DNA of 37,021 nucleotides from a virus. Positions 10,230 to 18,688 of this stretch are shown one piece after another. The position numbers were made by a program, and so were the translations under genes. The notes below the pieces were generated by a model. That model was not told the DNA's origin, made no database searches, and saw only the letters and a list, made by a program, of their open reading frames with translations. Positions within the stretch are counted from its first letter, which is position 1; every line of letters begins with the position of its first letter. The DNA lies in the IMG/VR virus record IMGVR_UViG_3300043397_000019, positions 1 through 37,021 of that record; one strand, 5' to 3'.

Positions 10230-11762
10230 TTATGACCCCATCCATCCAGTTGATGCCGCGCTGCGGTCATAAGTGACCTGGCGCGTTGTGTTACGAGAAT
10301 TGTACTCCCCACGGCTGGCCACGGGAAACGCAAACGTCACGGCCAGGGCGTCAGCCGCATCAGGAGAGGCCAGCCCACGGGCTTTCATCTCCTTTTTCCC
10401 TTCCAAAAAGATCGTCCCAGCCGAGTTGGGCTTCTTCATCGGGCCGATCAGGTCGTTCCTGAGCGATCGATCGTTGGGAATCGATGCAGTCCTGAGCCAG
10501 TCGCGCATCGCACCCCAGATTTCGGCCCGTTTGTTGCCCCACATGACCGGGTTTTTTGCTTTCCAAGCGAAGTTGACCCCGCGCACTTTGTAACGCTGCT
10601 CGGTCAATCTGTCAAGGATGCCGTAGCCCAGGCCACCCTCGTCGATCACAGTCAGCGCAGGCTTGTATTCGTCGATGGCATCGATCACGTGCCCCACGAC
10701 GCTCATGGTGTCCTCACCTTTGAGCCGCTTGATGGCCACAACGTCACGCCCTTGGCGCACCAGGATCACGGTGCTGTCCATGCCGCCCCGCGCCGGGTCC
10801 ACGCCGATCACAATTGGTGCCGTTTGGTCTTTCCACTTCTCCCGTTTCATGGCGTCTTCGACCACCACGGGCGAGATGAACTGGTCTTCACCGGCAGCGG
10901 GGAACTCGCCGTAGACCTCGACACGGGCTTGGATCGAGTCTTCACCGTATTCGGCGATGATCTGGTCGTAGACAGCCTTGTCGGTGCCCTCCACGGTCCT
11001 GGCATCGATGATCTGCCCTTTCCAAAAGTCCCGCTTACCGTGGAACGTCTCGAAAAAGTACCCGGTGTTTCGCCGTGGGTTGGAGAACGCGAACCAGTAG
11101 CGATCTAGGATCTTCTCGGTAAAGAAGCCCGCAGCCACTGACCAGATGCCGTCCGGGATACCGCTGGCCTCGTCAAAGATCACCATCATGCCGTCGTGGT
11201 TGTGCACACCGGCATACGAGTCAGGGTTCTCCTCGCTCCACAATTTCCCCTCGGCAGACCAGTACCGGGTGCCCTTCTTCAGGTCACGCTCGACCAGCTC
11301 GGTCAACCACTGCGCAGGCACCAGCTTCGTAGCGCTCGGCTCCCACCAGTGCGAGTTGATGCTCATCGTGGCCCATTTAGTCAGTTCACCCCAGGTCACC
11401 GTGCGCAACTGGTTCTCGCTGTTAGCCGAGACGATGACGCTACTGCCGATGCGGGTGGACAGCATCCACAAGATGAGCCAGCTCACCAGGGCCGACTTGC
11501 CAATCCCCCGGCCAGACGACACCGCGACGCGCAGGGCGTCCATGTCCAGCTGACCCTTGTTGGCCTTGATGTGGTCCGAGATCTCACGCAGCACCCTGCG
11601 CTGCCACTTCCTAGGACCACTGAACTTCTCGAGGGGTGTGTTCTTCTGTCCCCAGGGGAACGCGAACAGAACGAATGTCTCTGGGTTGTCCTTGATCTGT
11701 GGCGACCACAGCTGGGTCATCAAGACCTGTTCATCTTCAGGCAAGTAAATCGGTTTCTGCAT
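10230..11762 (-). CDS. Terminase large subunit (packaging ATPase/nuclease)
   Basis: The 510-residue protein is the motor that pumps DNA into the procapsid. The ATPase domain shows Walker A 'SSGRGIGKSAL' (82-92), Walker B 'MMVIFDEAS' (192-200, Asp197/Glu198) and a coupling segment around 'FAFSNPRRNTGYF'. The RNase H-like nuclease domain shows 'IVIGVDPARGGMDS' (Asp322), 'LTVIDEGGLGYG' (Asp374) and 'SPDAADALAVTFA' (Asp468/Asp471). The length is normal. Its ATG overlaps the stop of the small terminase gene. Such terminases are usual in pac-type, headful packagers, which fits a circularly permuted genome. Confidence 0.94.
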   Translation of the reverse strand: MQKPIYLPEDEQVLMTQLWSPQIKDNPETFVLFAFPWGQKNTPLEKFSGPRKWQRRVLREISDHIKANKGQLDMDALRVAVSSGRGIGKSALVSWLILWMLSTRIGSSVIVSANSENQLRTVTWGELTKWATMSINSHWWEPSATKLVPAQWLTELVERDLKKGTRYWSAEGKLWSEENPDSYAGVHNHDGMMVIFDEASGIPDGIWSVAAGFFTEKILDRYWFAFSNPRRNTGYFFETFHGKRDFWKGQIIDARTVEGTDKAVYDQIIAEYGEDSIQARVEVYGEFPAAGEDQFISPVVVEDAMKREKWKDQTAPIVIGVDPARGGMDSTVILVRQGRDVVAIKRLKGEDTMSVVGHVIDAIDEYKPALTVIDEGGLGYGILDRLTEQRYKVRGVNFAWKAKNPVMWGNKRAEIWGAMRDWLRTASIPNDRSLRNDLIGPMKKPNSAGTIFLEGKKEMKARGLASPDAADALAVTFAFPVASRGEYNSRNTTRQVTYDRSAASTGWMGS

Positions 11763-12334
11763 CAGACGTCCCTCGAGTCCACATCAATCACTTCAGCTTC
11801 AATGATCCGAGCCTGGGCCGCAGCCAGCGCATCGGTGATCGAGATCGACCCGCCAAGCTCCACGGTCTTGGTCTCACCGTACTTCTTACGATTGTGTGCG
11901 CCCATGAGCCACTTACGAGTGTCGATCTTTAATCGGGAACGCTGGACGTCCTCCAGCGAGTCATCGGCGTCGGCAATCTCGATGATCTCGCCCGCCATGA
12001 ACTCGGTGCGCATCTCTTGGGCTTCGTCGAACAACTGCTTGCGCTGCGGATCTTTCTTGATCCACCGGTAGAAGTCGTTGTAGTCAATGTCCCGTTGGTC
12101 GTCCCGCAGCACCTGGGACAGGGACTTGCCGTGGGCAATCGAGTCGATGGCACGCATGAACACCTGCTCGTACTGCACGAGGGTGAGTGCCTTGACCTCT
12201 GCGGGCATCTTGGCCAGCGGGGTGTCGGATCGTGGCGCAGGGTCGAGCCAGTCGGGCAACTCGATTGAATGTTCGAGTTGGGTTGATTGATGTGCGACAT
12301 CTGCGCCTACGGATTGGGGTTGTGATGTGTCCAT
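11762..12334 (-). CDS. Terminase small subunit
   Basis: About 190 residues from ATG 12334. The middle has a helix-turn-helix-like block for pac-site recognition ('SIAHGKSLSQVLRDDQRDIDYNDFYRWIKKDPQRKQLFDEAQEMRTEFMAGEI' in outline), followed by 'IADADDSLEDVQRSRLKIDTRKWLMGAHNRKKYGE', a stretch I know from phage small terminase subunits, and an acidic Ala-rich C-terminus. Its stop overlaps the large subunit start (ATGA). No Shine-Dalgarno sequence precedes ATG 12334, and a TTG at 12355 is possible. A -10-like TACCCT with an upstream TG at 12344-12351 would make the mRNA nearly leaderless from the ATG. Confidence 0.82.
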   Translation of the reverse strand: MDTSQPQSVGADVAHQSTQLEHSIELPDWLDPAPRSDTPLAKMPAEVKALTLVQYEQVFMRAIDSIAHGKSLSQVLRDDQRDIDYNDFYRWIKKDPQRKQLFDEAQEMRTEFMAGEIIEIADADDSLEDVQRSRLKIDTRKWLMGAHNRKKYGETKTVELGGSISITDALAAAQARIIEAEVIDVDSRDV

Positions 12335-12376
12335 AGTGTCTATAGGGTAGCACAAGAATTGTCCGTGGGGAAGTGA

Positions 12377-12387
12377 ACCCAGTGGGT
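12377..12387. promoter_or_regulatory. ACCCAGTGGGT palindrome, copy 1
   Basis: This perfect 11-bp palindrome lies about 43 bases upstream of the small terminase ATG at 12334 and roughly 30 bases behind its possible -10 box. It is one of five copies (ACCCA-C/G-TGGGT) within 1.13 kb. It is probably an operator for a phage-encoded regulator. Confidence 0.6.
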
Positions 12388-12545
12388 CTAGGTGTCATTT
12401 GAAAAAATAAAAAATTGTTCGCGGGGCCTCCGTAGCCGTGACCCTTGGTCCGTCGGCCCTACCCCCTCCCCCTTGGACGCCAAGGCTCCCGCGATCCACT
12501 GCGCCACGGCACGCGCCATGATCCCCCATGAGCCAGTGCGTCCAT

Positions 12546-12609
12546 GTTAGTGAGCACTGACTAACATAATCAGTGAACCCACTGGGTTAGTTAGTGAGCA
12601 CTGACTAAC
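12546..12609. repeat. 20-bp direct repeat pair flanking palindrome copy 2
   Basis: GTTAGTGAGCACTGACTAAC occurs at 12546-12565 and again, identically, at 12590-12609. The copies are 44 bases apart start to start, and each is itself imperfectly palindromic (GTTAGT...ACTAAC arms). The ACCCACTGGGT palindrome (12577-12587) lies between them. The arrangement suggests a nucleoprotein control site, such as iterons, operators or packaging-protein sites. Confidence 0.75.
12577..12587. promoter_or_regulatory. ACCCACTGGGT palindrome, copy 2
   Basis: This perfect palindrome (13 bp as AACCCACTGGGTT) begins 6 bases after a CATAAT box at 12565-12570 on the plus strand. That is the position expected of an operator overlapping a start site. 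It lies exactly 200 bases from copy 1. Confidence 0.6.
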
Positions 12610-12626
12610 TGAATCCATGAGTCATG

Positions 12627-12637
12627 ACCCACTGGGT
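12627..12637. promoter_or_regulatory. ACCCACTGGGT palindrome, copy 3
   Basis: This is a perfect palindrome, 13 bp as GACCCACTGGGTC, placed 50 bases after copy 2 and 13 bases before the ATTCTC array. It is probably part of the same operator set. Confidence 0.6.
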
Positions 12638-12650
12638 CTAAATGCGAATC

Positions 12651-12668
12651 ATTCTCATTCTCATTGTC
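12651..12668 (+). promoter_or_regulatory. Tandem ATTCTC-ATTCTC-ATTGTC array, Fur-box-like
   Basis: Three adjacent hexamers ATTNTC follow 'AATGCGAATC'. Fur boxes can be described as three or more adjacent NAT(A/T)AT-type hexamers, and 'GAATCATTCTCATT' is typical of proteobacterial Fur sites. The alternative is a simple iteron or chance repeat. No iron-related gene is seen nearby. Confidence 0.35.
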
Positions 12669-12690
12669 ATTTGTGACTCCGCGCAGGCGT

Positions 12691-12720
12691 GGAATCCGGG
12701 GTCAAAGTTTCCCGGATTCC
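12691..12720. repeat. Perfect inverted repeat, 10-bp arms and 10-nt loop
   Basis: GGAATCCGGG (12691-12700) and CCCGGATTCC (12711-12720) are exact reverse complements around GTCAAAGTTT. Neither strand has a U-tract after the stem, so a simple terminator is unlikely. A DNA cruciform, protein-binding site or structured 5' leader RNA are the options. The half-sequence GGATTCC recurs near 12824. Confidence 0.8.
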
Positions 12721-12932
12721 TGAATTAACCCAGAGAACCCCAAGAACCCACGGAAAACCTAAAACCTTGCCCCATTTTTCATATCCGAGCGAGGAAGCCG
12801 CTAACCGCTGTGACAATTTGACGGATTCCTACATAAGCGCTTTACAAATAAAATAACCATTACGTGATTATTTAAGTTACAATGGGGTTTTGTAGGAAAC
12901 TGACGCTTTGTCACACTTGAAAGGACAACTCA

Positions 12933-13448
12933 ATGAAACCGTTTGACGACTCTTTATTACATGCCGCTCTTGAGCGCTACCACTTTTGCAAGGACAGCGG
13001 AAGCTTCTTTCAAATCGTTCGGGGTGTAGACAACAAATCCACAATCACTGGAAAGTTTGCCGGAACCACAACACCCTCAGGAATCCGGTTAACTGTGCAA
13101 AACCGGCATGTGATGGCGCACCACTTGGCATGGCGAATCTATGAGGGTGAATGGCCCATCGCAAGCGTGAAATTTCATGATGGGGATGTGATGAACTGCA
13201 AAGCCTCGAATCTGTATTCACCTGGGCGAGTCAAGAAGATCAAGGCGATGGCAGACAAAGAATCATTAGCAAAGGTTGATTTCCTGAAATCCATTGGCAT
13301 CACCCGCGAATCAATCCAGCGTGCAATGCTTGACCGCATACGCAATGAACAAGGCGACAAAGCCTACATTGAAGCCATGCACATGATGGGACGGATTGAC
13401 GACGATCAAAAAACGGCAATGCTGCGAGAAATTAGGGAAAATACCTAG
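12933..13448 (+). CDS. HNH-like protein at the start of the early operon
   Basis: The product has 171 residues. The centre reads 'VMAHHLAWRIYEGEWPIASVKFHDGDVMNCKASNLYSP', which aligns with the phage HNH_3 motif (AHRLAWxxxxGEWP...DHINGDxxDNRxSNL). The usual Asp-His is here Phe-His, and the Asn of the DNR position is Asn-Cys-Lys. The His is kept but the metal site may be weakened. The C-terminal half is helical ('ESIQRAMLDRIRNEQGDKAYIEAMHMMGRIDDDQ'), perhaps DNA-binding. It has a good ribosome site (AAAGGAC) and follows the repeat-rich control region. It could be a homing nuclease, a decayed one, or one reused as a regulator. Confidence 0.6.
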   Translation: MKPFDDSLLHAALERYHFCKDSGSFFQIVRGVDNKSTITGKFAGTTTPSGIRLTVQNRHVMAHHLAWRIYEGEWPIASVKFHDGDVMNCKASNLYSPGRVKKIKAMADKESLAKVDFLKSIGITRESIQRAMLDRIRNEQGDKAYIEAMHMMGRIDDDQKTAMLREIRENT

Positions 13449-13459
13449 TAAATAATTCA

Positions 13460-13490
13460 TTGACCCAGTGGGTGAAGTGTGTGCTACAAT
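13460..13490 (+). promoter_or_regulatory. Early promoter with extended -10, overlapped by operators
   Basis: The -35 is TTGACC (13460-13465), with a 19-bp spacer and an extended -10 TGC-TACAAT (13482-13490). One ACCCAGTGGGT palindrome covers the -35 end (13463-13473) and another (13494-13504) covers the expected start site. The same format (19-bp spacer, TGNTACANT) recurs at 18435-18465 and 26150-26180. Confidence 0.7.
13463..13473. promoter_or_regulatory. ACCCAGTGGGT palindrome, copy 4
   Basis: It overlaps the last bases of the TTGACC -35 box of the early promoter at 13460-13490. A protein bound here would touch RNA polymerase. Confidence 0.65.
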
Positions 13491-13493
13491 CTA

Positions 13494-13504
13494 ACCCACT
13501 GGGT
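13494..13504. promoter_or_regulatory. ACCCACTGGGT palindrome, copy 5
   Basis: It lies 3 bases after the -10 box, over the predicted transcription start, where a bound repressor would block initiation. A half site (CACCCAGT) follows at once. Confidence 0.65.
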
Positions 13505-14833: not shown

Positions 14834-14864
14834 GCCCCCAGGTTAGCCCCTGGGGGCATTTTTT
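14834..14864 (+). terminator. Rho-independent terminator of first early operon
   Basis: GCCCCCAGG (14834-14842) pairs perfectly with CCTGGGGGC (14849-14857) around a 6-nt loop, followed by ATTTTTT. It ends the transcript that starts near 13497. Confidence 0.92.
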
Positions 14865-14887
14865 GACCCTTACCCTGACTGACCCCT

Positions 14888-15181
14888 ATGCCCGACAAAA
14901 AAGCCCCTCAAAACCCCGATTTTGCCCCTACCCTGGTCGCGCTACTGACTCGCCACCAGTTGACCGAAGCCCAGACCGCCGGGCTACTGGGTGTACCCGT
15001 GTTCACTTTGCGCAAGTGGACAGCCGGACAGCGTGCCCCCAGCGCGGCAGCTGTTCGCCTGCTCGATGTGCTTTGCACGATGGAAGCACTGGCCCCCAGC
15101 TTGCTGGGCGCGTTCATCCCCGCACCAGTCCCACCGAAACCCCCTAAGCGGAAAACAAAAATGGAAAAATCCCCCTTATAA
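14888..15181 (+). CDS. Helix-turn-helix DNA-binding regulator
   Basis: The product has 97 residues. Residues about 14-62 read as an XRE/YdcQ-like helix-turn-helix ('LVALLTRHQLTEAQTAGLLGVPVFTLRKWTAGQRAPSAAAVRLLDVL'), with the recognition helix near 'PVFTLRKWTAG'. A Pro/Lys-rich tail follows. It lies after the terminator at 14834-14864 and must be read through or have its own weak promoter. It is one of two DNA-binding regulators in the genome and so a candidate binder of the ACCCANTGGGT palindromes. It has no CI-type protease domain, so it is not a classical lambda-like repressor. Confidence 0.75.
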   Translation: MPDKKAPQNPDFAPTLVALLTRHQLTEAQTAGLLGVPVFTLRKWTAGQRAPSAAAVRLLDVLCTMEALAPSLLGAFIPAPVPPKPPKRKTKMEKSPL

Positions 15182-15845: not shown

Positions 15846-18323
15846 TCAATCCAGCAACTCGGCCCCGTATACACGGGGCTTTTCTTTTCTCGACAGCCGG
15901 TAGATGTCATCGAGCTGGCGCTGTTTGGCATCGATCACGGCCTTGCGGTGATCCTTGAACTGCACGGCCAGCGCGGGGTTGATGGCCCACTGGGCGTGGT
16001 GCTGGTTCTCTTTCGAGCCATCGTCCATGCGCATGACCCATCTGCCCTGCTCCAGCGGGTACATGGCCCCGTAGATCATCTGGTCTTGCTGCCACACGTT
16101 GGTCTTCTCGATCTGACGGCGTGCTGATCGTTTGATCTCGGCCATCGTGATTGTCGGCTCATCGGCGTGCTGGATGATGTAGTCCCGCAACCATGTGTCG
16201 AAGTTGGACGCACCGGACAGCTCGCTCAAGGCATACCGATATGCAGGCACCACGTAGGTCTGGACCATGTGGATCACCCGCTTGGCCAGGTCTGCGGACA
16301 CCGTGGGGCTGAAGGGCGCTTCGATCAAGTGGAACATGAGCATGATGCGCCCGGCCAACCCCTCGATCTTGCCAAAGGCAGTCATGAACGTGTCGTCAGA
16401 CTGGAGCAGGCGCTCATCGTGGCGCTTGGCGTCGTACCAGTCTTGGAACTCCTGATACACGGCTTTGGCCTCTGGGGACAGCTGGTAGGTCATGGGAGGC
16501 AGGGCAAACACGATGCGCAGGGTCTGCTCCCATTGCTGCTTGTTCAGCAGGTAATCGGGGATCTCGACGGGCTTGCGGGTCAAATCACCGTTCAAGATGC
16601 ACGGCACGAAGCGCTGCACCAGACCATCGGCGCTCAGGTTGTGCAGGCTCTCACGGAACACGCGAGGCTGGATGTTCCCGTAGATCGACACAGCCAGGTT
16701 TTCGGCAAAGATCGAGCCACTGCCCACCCGGTCCATCTCGTAGCTACTCGACTCGTAGGCCTTGACCCATGCAGAGCGATCCTCACCGCTGGCCTTGTCG
16801 GTCAACTTGCGCACCCAGCTGTTCATCTCATCGAGGGCGCACAGCAGACCCCGTGGGCGATCAGCTGCCAAGCGCACCAGCTTCTGACTGGTCACGTCAT
16901 CCACGGTGATGCGCAGGGGCACGGGCTGGGGTGGCAAGTCATGCACCGGTGGAGCTTGGCTGGTATCGAGCAGTGCGTCAGGGCTGGCCGAGAACTCAAG
17001 GAATGCCTTTTTGCTGGAGGCAAACATGGCCTCCTGACCCTCCCAGTCCAGCAGATCCTTCTTGAACCGTGGACGGTCCTCCAACTCGAGCAGCTTTAGG
17101 GGTGCCAGCATAGGCCCAGAGCCTGGGGTTTTCTTGTCCGCTGGGGCACCGATGGTCATGAGCCACAGCACCGGTGGCACCTTGAAGTCCTTGATCAGCT
17201 CCAGCCGGGTGCGTGCATCGGCGACACCACAGACAGCAGCCAGTCCTGCGAACAGGGGCACCAGAGGGTCACAACCCACGGTCTGGCCGATCTCCTCGGC
17301 ACGGCGGGCGATGACAGCAGGCCACAGGGATACGTCCATCATCGGTGGCCGTGGCCTGAGGTCAACGATGACTGATTTTGGGTCGGCTGGGGCCTCCACA
17401 GCTGCAAACATCGAGGAGATGTCTGGCAGGGGCTTGACCCATCCGTGCTGCTTGGCGATGTGGAACAAGCTGCCCAGCTTGACCGCTGTGGCCTTGTCGT
17501 TCCTGAAGCTGACCCACTGGTTGACAATTTCCTTTTCGCCGGGGTATTTGTCAGCCGACTGCTGGCTCCAGTCGTGCCAGAGCGTCAGGGCCTGATCCAG
17601 CTGATCCGTCTGATCGCCTGCCCACTTGAGCGCCATGCCCACGGTGACCCACTCCTCACGGGAGCAGTTGGCAGGGATGGACTCGAGAGCTGATCGGATG
17701 TCGGACCATGACGCATCGATGGTGTCATTTGTATCAATGTTACGGACCTTATCGGATTCCAATAACTTTTGCCACAGATCGAGCAGAGGCTGGGGGATCG
17801 TGGGCAGACGGGTCCAGTGGCCCTTGCCAGCCCAGCGGTAAGGCTGGAGCGTGTCAGGGTGAATCGATGGGGGCATGACGTCTTGCACCGTCAGGCCGTT
17901 GGCCGTGGCGCAGCGCAGCTCGTAGGCTGTGACGCTGTTGATCAGGATCTTTTTGGACGGCAGCGCCAAGCCGAAGGGCATCTGGTACAGCAGCTTGCCG
18001 TGACCAGCCCTGCCCGAGTCCACGATGACAGCATCGTTGGCATCATACAGCGCTTGCAGATCGATGCCGTGTTGCTGGAGCGCCACAGCTGTGGACTCCC
18101 ACTCGTCAATGTCCAAGGCCATTGTGCCGCTGTATGCATGGGCCAAGCCGATGCCAAAGCCTGCGGGCAGATCGAGCTGCGACTTCAGGGCGTTGGTCTT
18201 GAGGTTCCAGCCTGGTGTGCGTGGCCCCTTGGTGCCAGCGGGGATGGGCACAAGTGACCAGCCGTGACGGATGTAGGCATCGATGGATGCGGGGTGTGCT
18301 TGTACGGATGGTATTGCTGTCAT
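15846..18323 (-). CDS. Primase-polymerase / DUF3987 helicase-like replication protein
   Basis: The 825-residue protein appears to combine three parts. (1) An archaeo-eukaryotic type primase-polymerase domain (about 10-190) has 'GWSLVPIPAGTKGP', the metal-binding 'ALDIDEWE' (Asp71/Asp73) and 'SGRAGHGKLLY' (His108), then 'YRWAGKG'. (2) A PriCT-2-like linker (about 205-300) has 'SREEWVTVGMALKW...ALTLWHDWSQQSADKY'. (3) A DUF3987 domain (about 330-780) has a degenerate P-loop ('APADKKTPGSGP', near 395) and a Walker B-like 'LLCALDEMNSW' (near 495). The canonical GKS is absent, as is common in DUF3987. It should prime replication. It is transcribed against its neighbours and follows a 14-codon leader peptide. 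Confidence 0.85.
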   Translation of the reverse strand: MTAIPSVQAHPASIDAYIRHGWSLVPIPAGTKGPRTPGWNLKTNALKSQLDLPAGFGIGLAHAYSGTMALDIDEWESTAVALQQHGIDLQALYDANDAVIVDSGRAGHGKLLYQMPFGLALPSKKILINSVTAYELRCATANGLTVQDVMPPSIHPDTLQPYRWAGKGHWTRLPTIPQPLLDLWQKLLESDKVRNIDTNDTIDASWSDIRSALESIPANCSREEWVTVGMALKWAGDQTDQLDQALTLWHDWSQQSADKYPGEKEIVNQWVSFRNDKATAVKLGSLFHIAKQHGWVKPLPDISSMFAAVEAPADPKSVIVDLRPRPPMMDVSLWPAVIARRAEEIGQTVGCDPLVPLFAGLAAVCGVADARTRLELIKDFKVPPVLWLMTIGAPADKKTPGSGPMLAPLKLLELEDRPRFKKDLLDWEGQEAMFASSKKAFLEFSASPDALLDTSQAPPVHDLPPQPVPLRITVDDVTSQKLVRLAADRPRGLLCALDEMNSWVRKLTDKASGEDRSAWVKAYESSSYEMDRVGSGSIFAENLAVSIYGNIQPRVFRESLHNLSADGLVQRFVPCILNGDLTRKPVEIPDYLLNKQQWEQTLRIVFALPPMTYQLSPEAKAVYQEFQDWYDAKRHDERLLQSDDTFMTAFGKIEGLAGRIMLMFHLIEAPFSPTVSADLAKRVIHMVQTYVVPAYRYALSELSGASNFDTWLRDYIIQHADEPTITMAEIKRSARRQIEKTNVWQQDQMIYGAMYPLEQGRWVMRMDDGSKENQHHAQWAINPALAVQFKDHRKAVIDAKQRQLDDIYRLSRKEKPRVYGAELLD

Positions 18324-18490: not shown

Positions 18491-18688
18491 ATGGCAACCG
18501 TCAAATCCAAATCCAAGTTTCTGACTGTACGGGTGTCCCCCGACAGTCACAAGAAATTTCACACCAAAGTGCGAAAGTACGGGCAACCGTCTGATGTGCT
18601 TCGTGAAATCATCGAGGCGTTCATTGAAGACCGCCTCGTAATTCAACCTCCCGTAACTCGTAAAGAAAGCCTCTACCATGTCTCTTGA
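18491..18688 (+). CDS. Ribbon-helix-helix (Arc/CopG-type) regulator
   Basis: Sixty-five residues. 'SKFLTVRVSPDSHKKFHTKVRKYGQPSDVLREIIEAFIEDRL' (about 8-50) fits a beta strand followed by two helices, with the strand 'FLTVRVS' expected to enter the major groove. The N-terminus is basic. It is the first gene after the divergent promoter and dyad (18434-18474), the classical place for an autoregulating RHH repressor. Its 3' end overlaps the next gene by 11 bases. The C-terminal 15 residues are outside the fold. Confidence 0.75.
   Translation: MATVKSKSKFLTVRVSPDSHKKFHTKVRKYGQPSDVLREIIEAFIEDRLVIQPPVTRKESLYHVS

Follow-up and report, generated by a model that had tools for sequence, protein, structure and literature searches.

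How early transcription gives way to late transcription is the question raised by the region between the leftward terminase operon and the rightward early operon of a freshwater phage with P22-like structural genes. The window analysed here is the whole virus record (37,021 bp), which also encodes a Prim-Pol, a RecB-like nuclease, an ssDNA-binding protein, a DNA polymerase and a SNF2 helicase. Neither an integrase, nor a CI-like repressor (C-terminal domain), nor a phage RNA polymerase was found among the scanned proteins, in keeping with an earlier note on this DNA that had described a phage without a recognisable CI repressor. The Prim-Pol/DUF3987 primase gene (15846-18323, minus strand) opposes the early genes on both its sides. 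The answer we favour, at a probability of roughly three in four, is a one-protein early-to-late switch: a small helix-turn-helix (HTH) protein would repress the early promoter and activate the late promoter via a set of short palindromes.

Five palindromes between the terminase and early operons

The exact 11-bp palindrome ACCCANTGGGT occurs at 12377, 12577, 12627, 13463 and 13494, and all five perfect palindromes reported in the earlier note were thereby recovered. As that note had also held, they lie outside likely genes, between the start of the leftward TerS gene (ATG at 12334) and the early operon: the first three fall within the non-coding stretch preceding the HNH gene, and the last two immediately behind that gene. 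The features of the region are the following:

11762-12334, minus strand: TerS, the Sf6-like terminase small subunit, first gene of the leftward late operon (Pfam Sf6_terminase, E 1.6e-20)
12344-12352, minus strand: predicted late TerS promoter, with an extended -10, TGC-TACCCT, no good -35 and a predicted start at ~12337
12377-12387: putative late operator ACCCAGTGGGT, centred 33 bp before the -10, at ~-45 of the predicted late start
12577-12587: putative middle-cluster operator 1, ACCCACTGGGT
12627-12637: putative middle-cluster operator 2, ACCCACTGGGT
12933-13448, plus strand: HNH endonuclease gene between the middle and early operators (HNH_3, E 1e-5)
13460-13490, plus strand: predicted early promoter, TTGACC (13460-13465), 19 bp, TACAAT (13485-13490), a 19-bp layout also present in L010, L078, L131, L127 and L119
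13463-13473: putative early operator overlapping the early promoter at its -35
13494-13504: putative early operator over the predicted early start site (~13497)
14834-14865, plus strand: strong intrinsic terminator, downstream of the early promoter and before the regulator gene
14888-15181, plus strand: proposed regulator, a 97-aa XRE-type HTH protein with the recognition helix PVFTLRKW

The concern that the motif might be common in the genome falls away: the record has no exact copy of ACCCANTGGGT beyond these five, for which the chance expectation from dinucleotide shuffles is 0.04 on average. When up to two mismatches to the palindrome are allowed, the genome has 28 matches where 16.7 are expected; hence, the signal resides in the exact palindromes.

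Conservation in related phages

The comparison set comprises 80 IMG/VR loci found by a terminase search, together with phage DSL-LC05 (OR003940) and two Manatee Spring genomes; among named phages, DSL-LC05 and a weak Akkermansia phage match were the only relatives. The palindrome is not lost in close relatives, the other ground for doubt: between 1 and 8 exact copies precede the terminase in most of the closer ones. When all 5-1-5 palindromes were searched de novo over as much as 3 kb of upstream sequence per locus, ACCCA came out top in nearly all closer relatives carrying the motif. Position and number vary while the sequence is kept, as would be the case for operators. This comparative evidence suggests that the palindromes are operators, conserved in about a hundred related phages. 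A literature search for the motif gave no relevant match.

In the layout of 59 loci, a single late operator is followed, at ~140-470 bp from TerS, by the middle cluster and then, mostly at ~500-760 bp, by the early operators. The early pair of the window lies ~500 bp further out than in most relatives, since the HNH gene sits between its middle and early sites. Upstream of the terminase in two further loci, L077 and L083, there is a different 5-1-5 palindrome, TATTGNCAATA, in four and two exact copies, respectively. No HTH of the window regulator's family was detectable in either, and they perhaps have a different regulator with a similar layout.

The early promoter

A sigma-70 scan with the standard 16-18 bp spacer found nothing in the region, the early promoter being missed on account of its 19-bp spacer. 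The earlier note had two palindromes bracketing this promoter, and indeed the one at 13463 lies on the -35 and the one at 13494 over the predicted start. Upstream of the HTH gene in 79 loci we found 75 promoter-like sequences (matching at least 10/12), of which 38 overlap an exact operator (shifted-site null: mean 3.35, at most 8), and 36 of these 38 are directed to the early operon. Counted by site, a promoter overlaps 43/125 operators in the forward direction as against 2/125 in the reverse, with few at the middle sites. Two early layouts recur: TTGACA-N5/6-ACCCANTGGGT-TATAAT, in which the operator occupies the -35/-10 spacer, and TTGACCCANTGGGT followed after 19 bp by the -10, which is the window type. 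An operator in the spacer or on the -35 is expected to exclude RNA polymerase, i.e. to repress; as the HTH gene lies downstream of the early promoter in the same direction, this would amount to negative autoregulation, subject to the terminator.

The late promoter and its helically phased operator

In nearly every locus a single operator just before TerS is followed by an extended -10 (TG in 53/67). The pattern TGnTAnnnT, placed 5-6 nt before CACTATG, the ATG of which is the TerS start, is conserved in relatives; the late -35 is conserved poorly. In nearly all relatives the TerS ATG comes only 9-10 nt past the -10 hexamer (in the window, the stretch 12332-12344), and the late mRNA would thus be almost leaderless. 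That the centre of the palindrome at 12377 is 33 bp upstream of the late -10 had escaped the earlier note, which could see neither the helical phasing of the late operator nor the terminator that precedes the gene of the proposed regulator.

The distances from the operator centre to CACTATG form groups one helical turn apart, at 44-46, 53-57, 64-66 and 74 bp, with a vector length of 0.84 at 10.5 bp. We pooled the loci already collected with those from IMG/VR scans by DNA pattern alone, which spanned gaps of 14-75 bases. Among the matches listed, 93 of 106 non-redundant cases fall within 2.1 bp of the 10.5-bp phase (40% expected), in groups at 44-45, 53-56, 63-66 and 74-77 bp; none has a distance of 58-62 or 67-73 bp, and out-of-phase late operators occur at 33, 41, 48, 82, 98 and 110 bp. 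The TerS tree needs at least 26 changes of turn class, a figure that is approximate because many forks of the tree are weak and phages recombine. Near relatives may be about one turn apart, as in the pairs L091/L092 (54/44), L010/L097 (57/44) and L122/L166 (45/56).

Such whole-turn changes in distance most likely reflect contact with RNA polymerase on a single helical face. The phasing reveals that the contact is face-specific and not what its sign is; given the poor -35 and the late timing, activation is the likely sign, and the contact at the late operator probably activates. Activator-dependent (class I/II-like) promoters have this arrangement too, being weak and preceded by a regulator site that keeps the helical phase.

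The HTH protein might instead be a repressor only, with negative autoregulation of the early genes and a late promoter held off until another factor or replication relieves it. The placement of the early operators is that of classic repression, and the nearest HTH folds belong to antitoxins and repressors such as HigA2 and MqsA. However, simple blocking would not be expected of an operator that lies, as the late one does, further upstream than the -35 region (~-45 to -76, changing by whole turns), and the poor late -35 with its extended -10 resembles activator-dependent promoters. We accordingly regard pure repression as rather unlikely.

The candidate regulator and its covariation with the operator

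When only loci extending 4 kb or more beyond the terminase on its upstream side are counted, exact ACCCA or AGCCA sites are present in 24/24 with an RKW/IKW- or RHW/RNW-type HTH as against 0/15 without the HTH. We gathered further HTH relatives and repeated the de novo palindrome search upstream of each. Proteins with RKW, IKW or IKY helices go with ACCCA (ACCCANTGGGT) nearly always, the exceptions being mostly loci cut short, and those with LRHW and LRNW recognition helices go with the palindrome AGCCANTGGCT (the AGCCA class). The second base of the half-site is C in 1125/1148 for the RKW/IKW class and G in 75/92 for the RHW/RNW class, fractions biased upwards by the picking of sites with at most one mismatch. 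A SALYAW-type HTH group may, tentatively, go with TCACANTGTGA-like sites, an assignment drawn solely from one-mismatch sites. A single origin of the RHW/RNW type is possible on an HTH tree from which the recognition helix was left out (support 60), and since the helix change may have arisen only once, the covariation counts few events. The AGCCA phages occupy two places on the TerS tree; it is possible that phages exchange the HTH and its operators as a module.

The modelled HTH protein has five helices (12-23, 27-34, 38-46, 53-68 and 70-76), with pLDDT >90 over most of the domain. The HTH_3 and HTH_31 profiles match 29 and 27 of 61 family members, respectively, at E<=0.01, the window protein alone being under the Pfam cut-off; together with the model, these matches point to an XRE/HTH_3 (lambda-repressor-like) DNA-binding fold. 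Its sequence and fold matches, none of them strong, include MqsA, HigA2, C proteins and P2 C. A search of bacterial and archaeal species genomes with peptide patterns taken from the window protein gave no relatives, an absence that speaks against lysogeny and fits a lytic life without proving it.

Both this protein and an RHH protein (18491-18688) had been put forward as candidate regulators in the earlier note; the HTH protein stands and the RHH protein, which does not covary with the operator, drops out. That the latter or another phage protein binds the operators, with the HTH gene merely travelling along, is very improbable: the RHH gene is also found in many of these phages, but its DNA-contacting strand, KFLTVRL, is the same in phages with ACCCA (L015, L026) and AGCCA (L037) operators, whereas the HTH recognition helix changes along with the operator.

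The middle cluster and neighbouring elements

The idea that the middle sites are further promoters finds no support, there being next to no promoters there; they may have a role in bridging, titration or as an origin. Gaps between neighbouring operators are hardly periodic at 10.5 bp (vector length 0.20 for 75 gaps), which leaves phased cooperative binding between neighbours unsupported. That the palindromes, chiefly those of the middle cluster, are replication-origin iterons or a packaging site and overlap promoters only secondarily would agree with the lack of a promoter in that cluster, where up to five or more sites follow one another, and with a conserved GC-rich and AT-rich element beside the cluster; yet the exact promoter geometry kept at the early and late sites, and the lack of a clear GC-skew switch at the region, make it a most doubtful account.

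Several other elements adjoin these sites. A Fur-box-like sequence, GAGAATGAGAATGATTCGC (minus strand, 12644-12662), is next to the operator at 12627; its 14/19 match to the consensus is on its own within chance, the notable part being the common place next to an operator, and similar sequences are found in L094 (17/19), L008, L090, L077 and L083. A second palindrome, GTTAGTGAGCACTGACTAAC, occurs twice around the operator at 12577 (12546-12565 and 12590-12609, 44-bp spacing), and also in L088 (twice), L090 and L094, and with one change in L091. Next to the late operator, 12390-12480 contains GGTAGGGCCGACGG...CGGCTACGGAGG and then a stretch like CACGAACAATTTTTTATTTTTTCAAA; it is conserved in distant relatives and is a candidate packaging or replication site.

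A terminator in front of the HTH gene

Strong intrinsic terminators precede the HTH gene in 76/95 loci, mostly 55-110 bp ahead of it, compared with 9/91 control stretches. The regulator thus needs readthrough or a promoter that we have not seen, and the terminator is perhaps a delay device.

A proposed early-to-late switch

The operators, their conservation, the co-occurrence with the HTH, the promoter geometry, the helical phasing and the terminator are computed features, from which we infer the following course of events. The HTH protein, an early gene product, would bind the palindromes directly as operators. At the early promoter it would block RNA polymerase and turn the early genes off, its own included; upstream of the TerS promoter it would touch the host RNA polymerase from a fixed face of the helix and turn late transcription on. 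The middle sites would probably aid occupancy or bridging, and dependence on readthrough past the terminator would delay the build-up of the regulator and thereby time the switch. The suggestion that one regulator could govern transcription of both kinds, early and late, thus draws good support from the comparative evidence.

Comparison with known systems

The p4 protein of Bacillus phage phi29 represses the A2b and A2c promoters and activates A3 with the host RNA polymerase; like the regulator proposed here, it is one early protein whose sites lie next to the late promoter as well as at early promoters, in part over the -35 (PMC3100819). In the window, the early promoter likewise has sites and another lies upstream of the late promoter, all of which the one protein would bind. 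The two systems differ in that p4 has a DNA-binding fold of its own, a CTTTTT-15 bp-AAAATG site and the nucleoid protein p6, whereas the present system combines an XRE-type protein with a larger number of sites, each an 11-bp dyad, and a late distance varying by whole turns. Sequence profile and fold searches with the HTH protein give XRE-type proteins and no homology to p4.

In lambda, CI and Cro combine a Cro-like HTH fold class with several short dyad operators between divergent operons, and one protein can both repress and activate. The window system shares the fold class and the operator arrangement, and the dual action is proposed here; unlike lambda, it is without a CI C-terminal domain, no integrase was found, and it would separate early from late rather than lysis from lysogeny. 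We therefore set aside a temperate CI/Cro immunity switch, there being no integrase or CI-like repressor among the scanned proteins and an HTH protein of just 97 aa. The C proteins of restriction-modification systems (C.AhdI, C.Esp1396I) are small Cro-like HTH proteins that both activate and repress; they are among the fold matches of the window HTH, which however has no restriction-modification genes beside it and a different operator. In sequence and fold the HTH domain matches the antitoxins HigA2 and MqsA best, but the window HTH is a free-standing protein with no toxin partner seen and no zinc domain. Most likely, then, the switch resembles phi29 p4 or lambda CI in action, through a different protein.

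Implications

More broadly, and only tentatively, lytic P22-like freshwater podoviruses, a large and little-described group, may have in a Cro-sized protein a complete early-to-late switch, with a terminator as its timer, a near-leaderless late mRNA, an activator site moved only by whole turns and middle sites that bridge the early and late operators into a looped complex. We found no description of transcription control in this group, and the word "repressor" is absent from the text of the DSL-LC05 paper. For this large environmental phage group, the present analysis supplies a candidate regulator with its putative operator, and an expectation of what binding would do at each promoter. About a hundred late promoters with whole-turn shifts in operator distance constitute a natural experiment, and from the series of recognition helices with matching operators the DNA code of the HTH protein could be derived.
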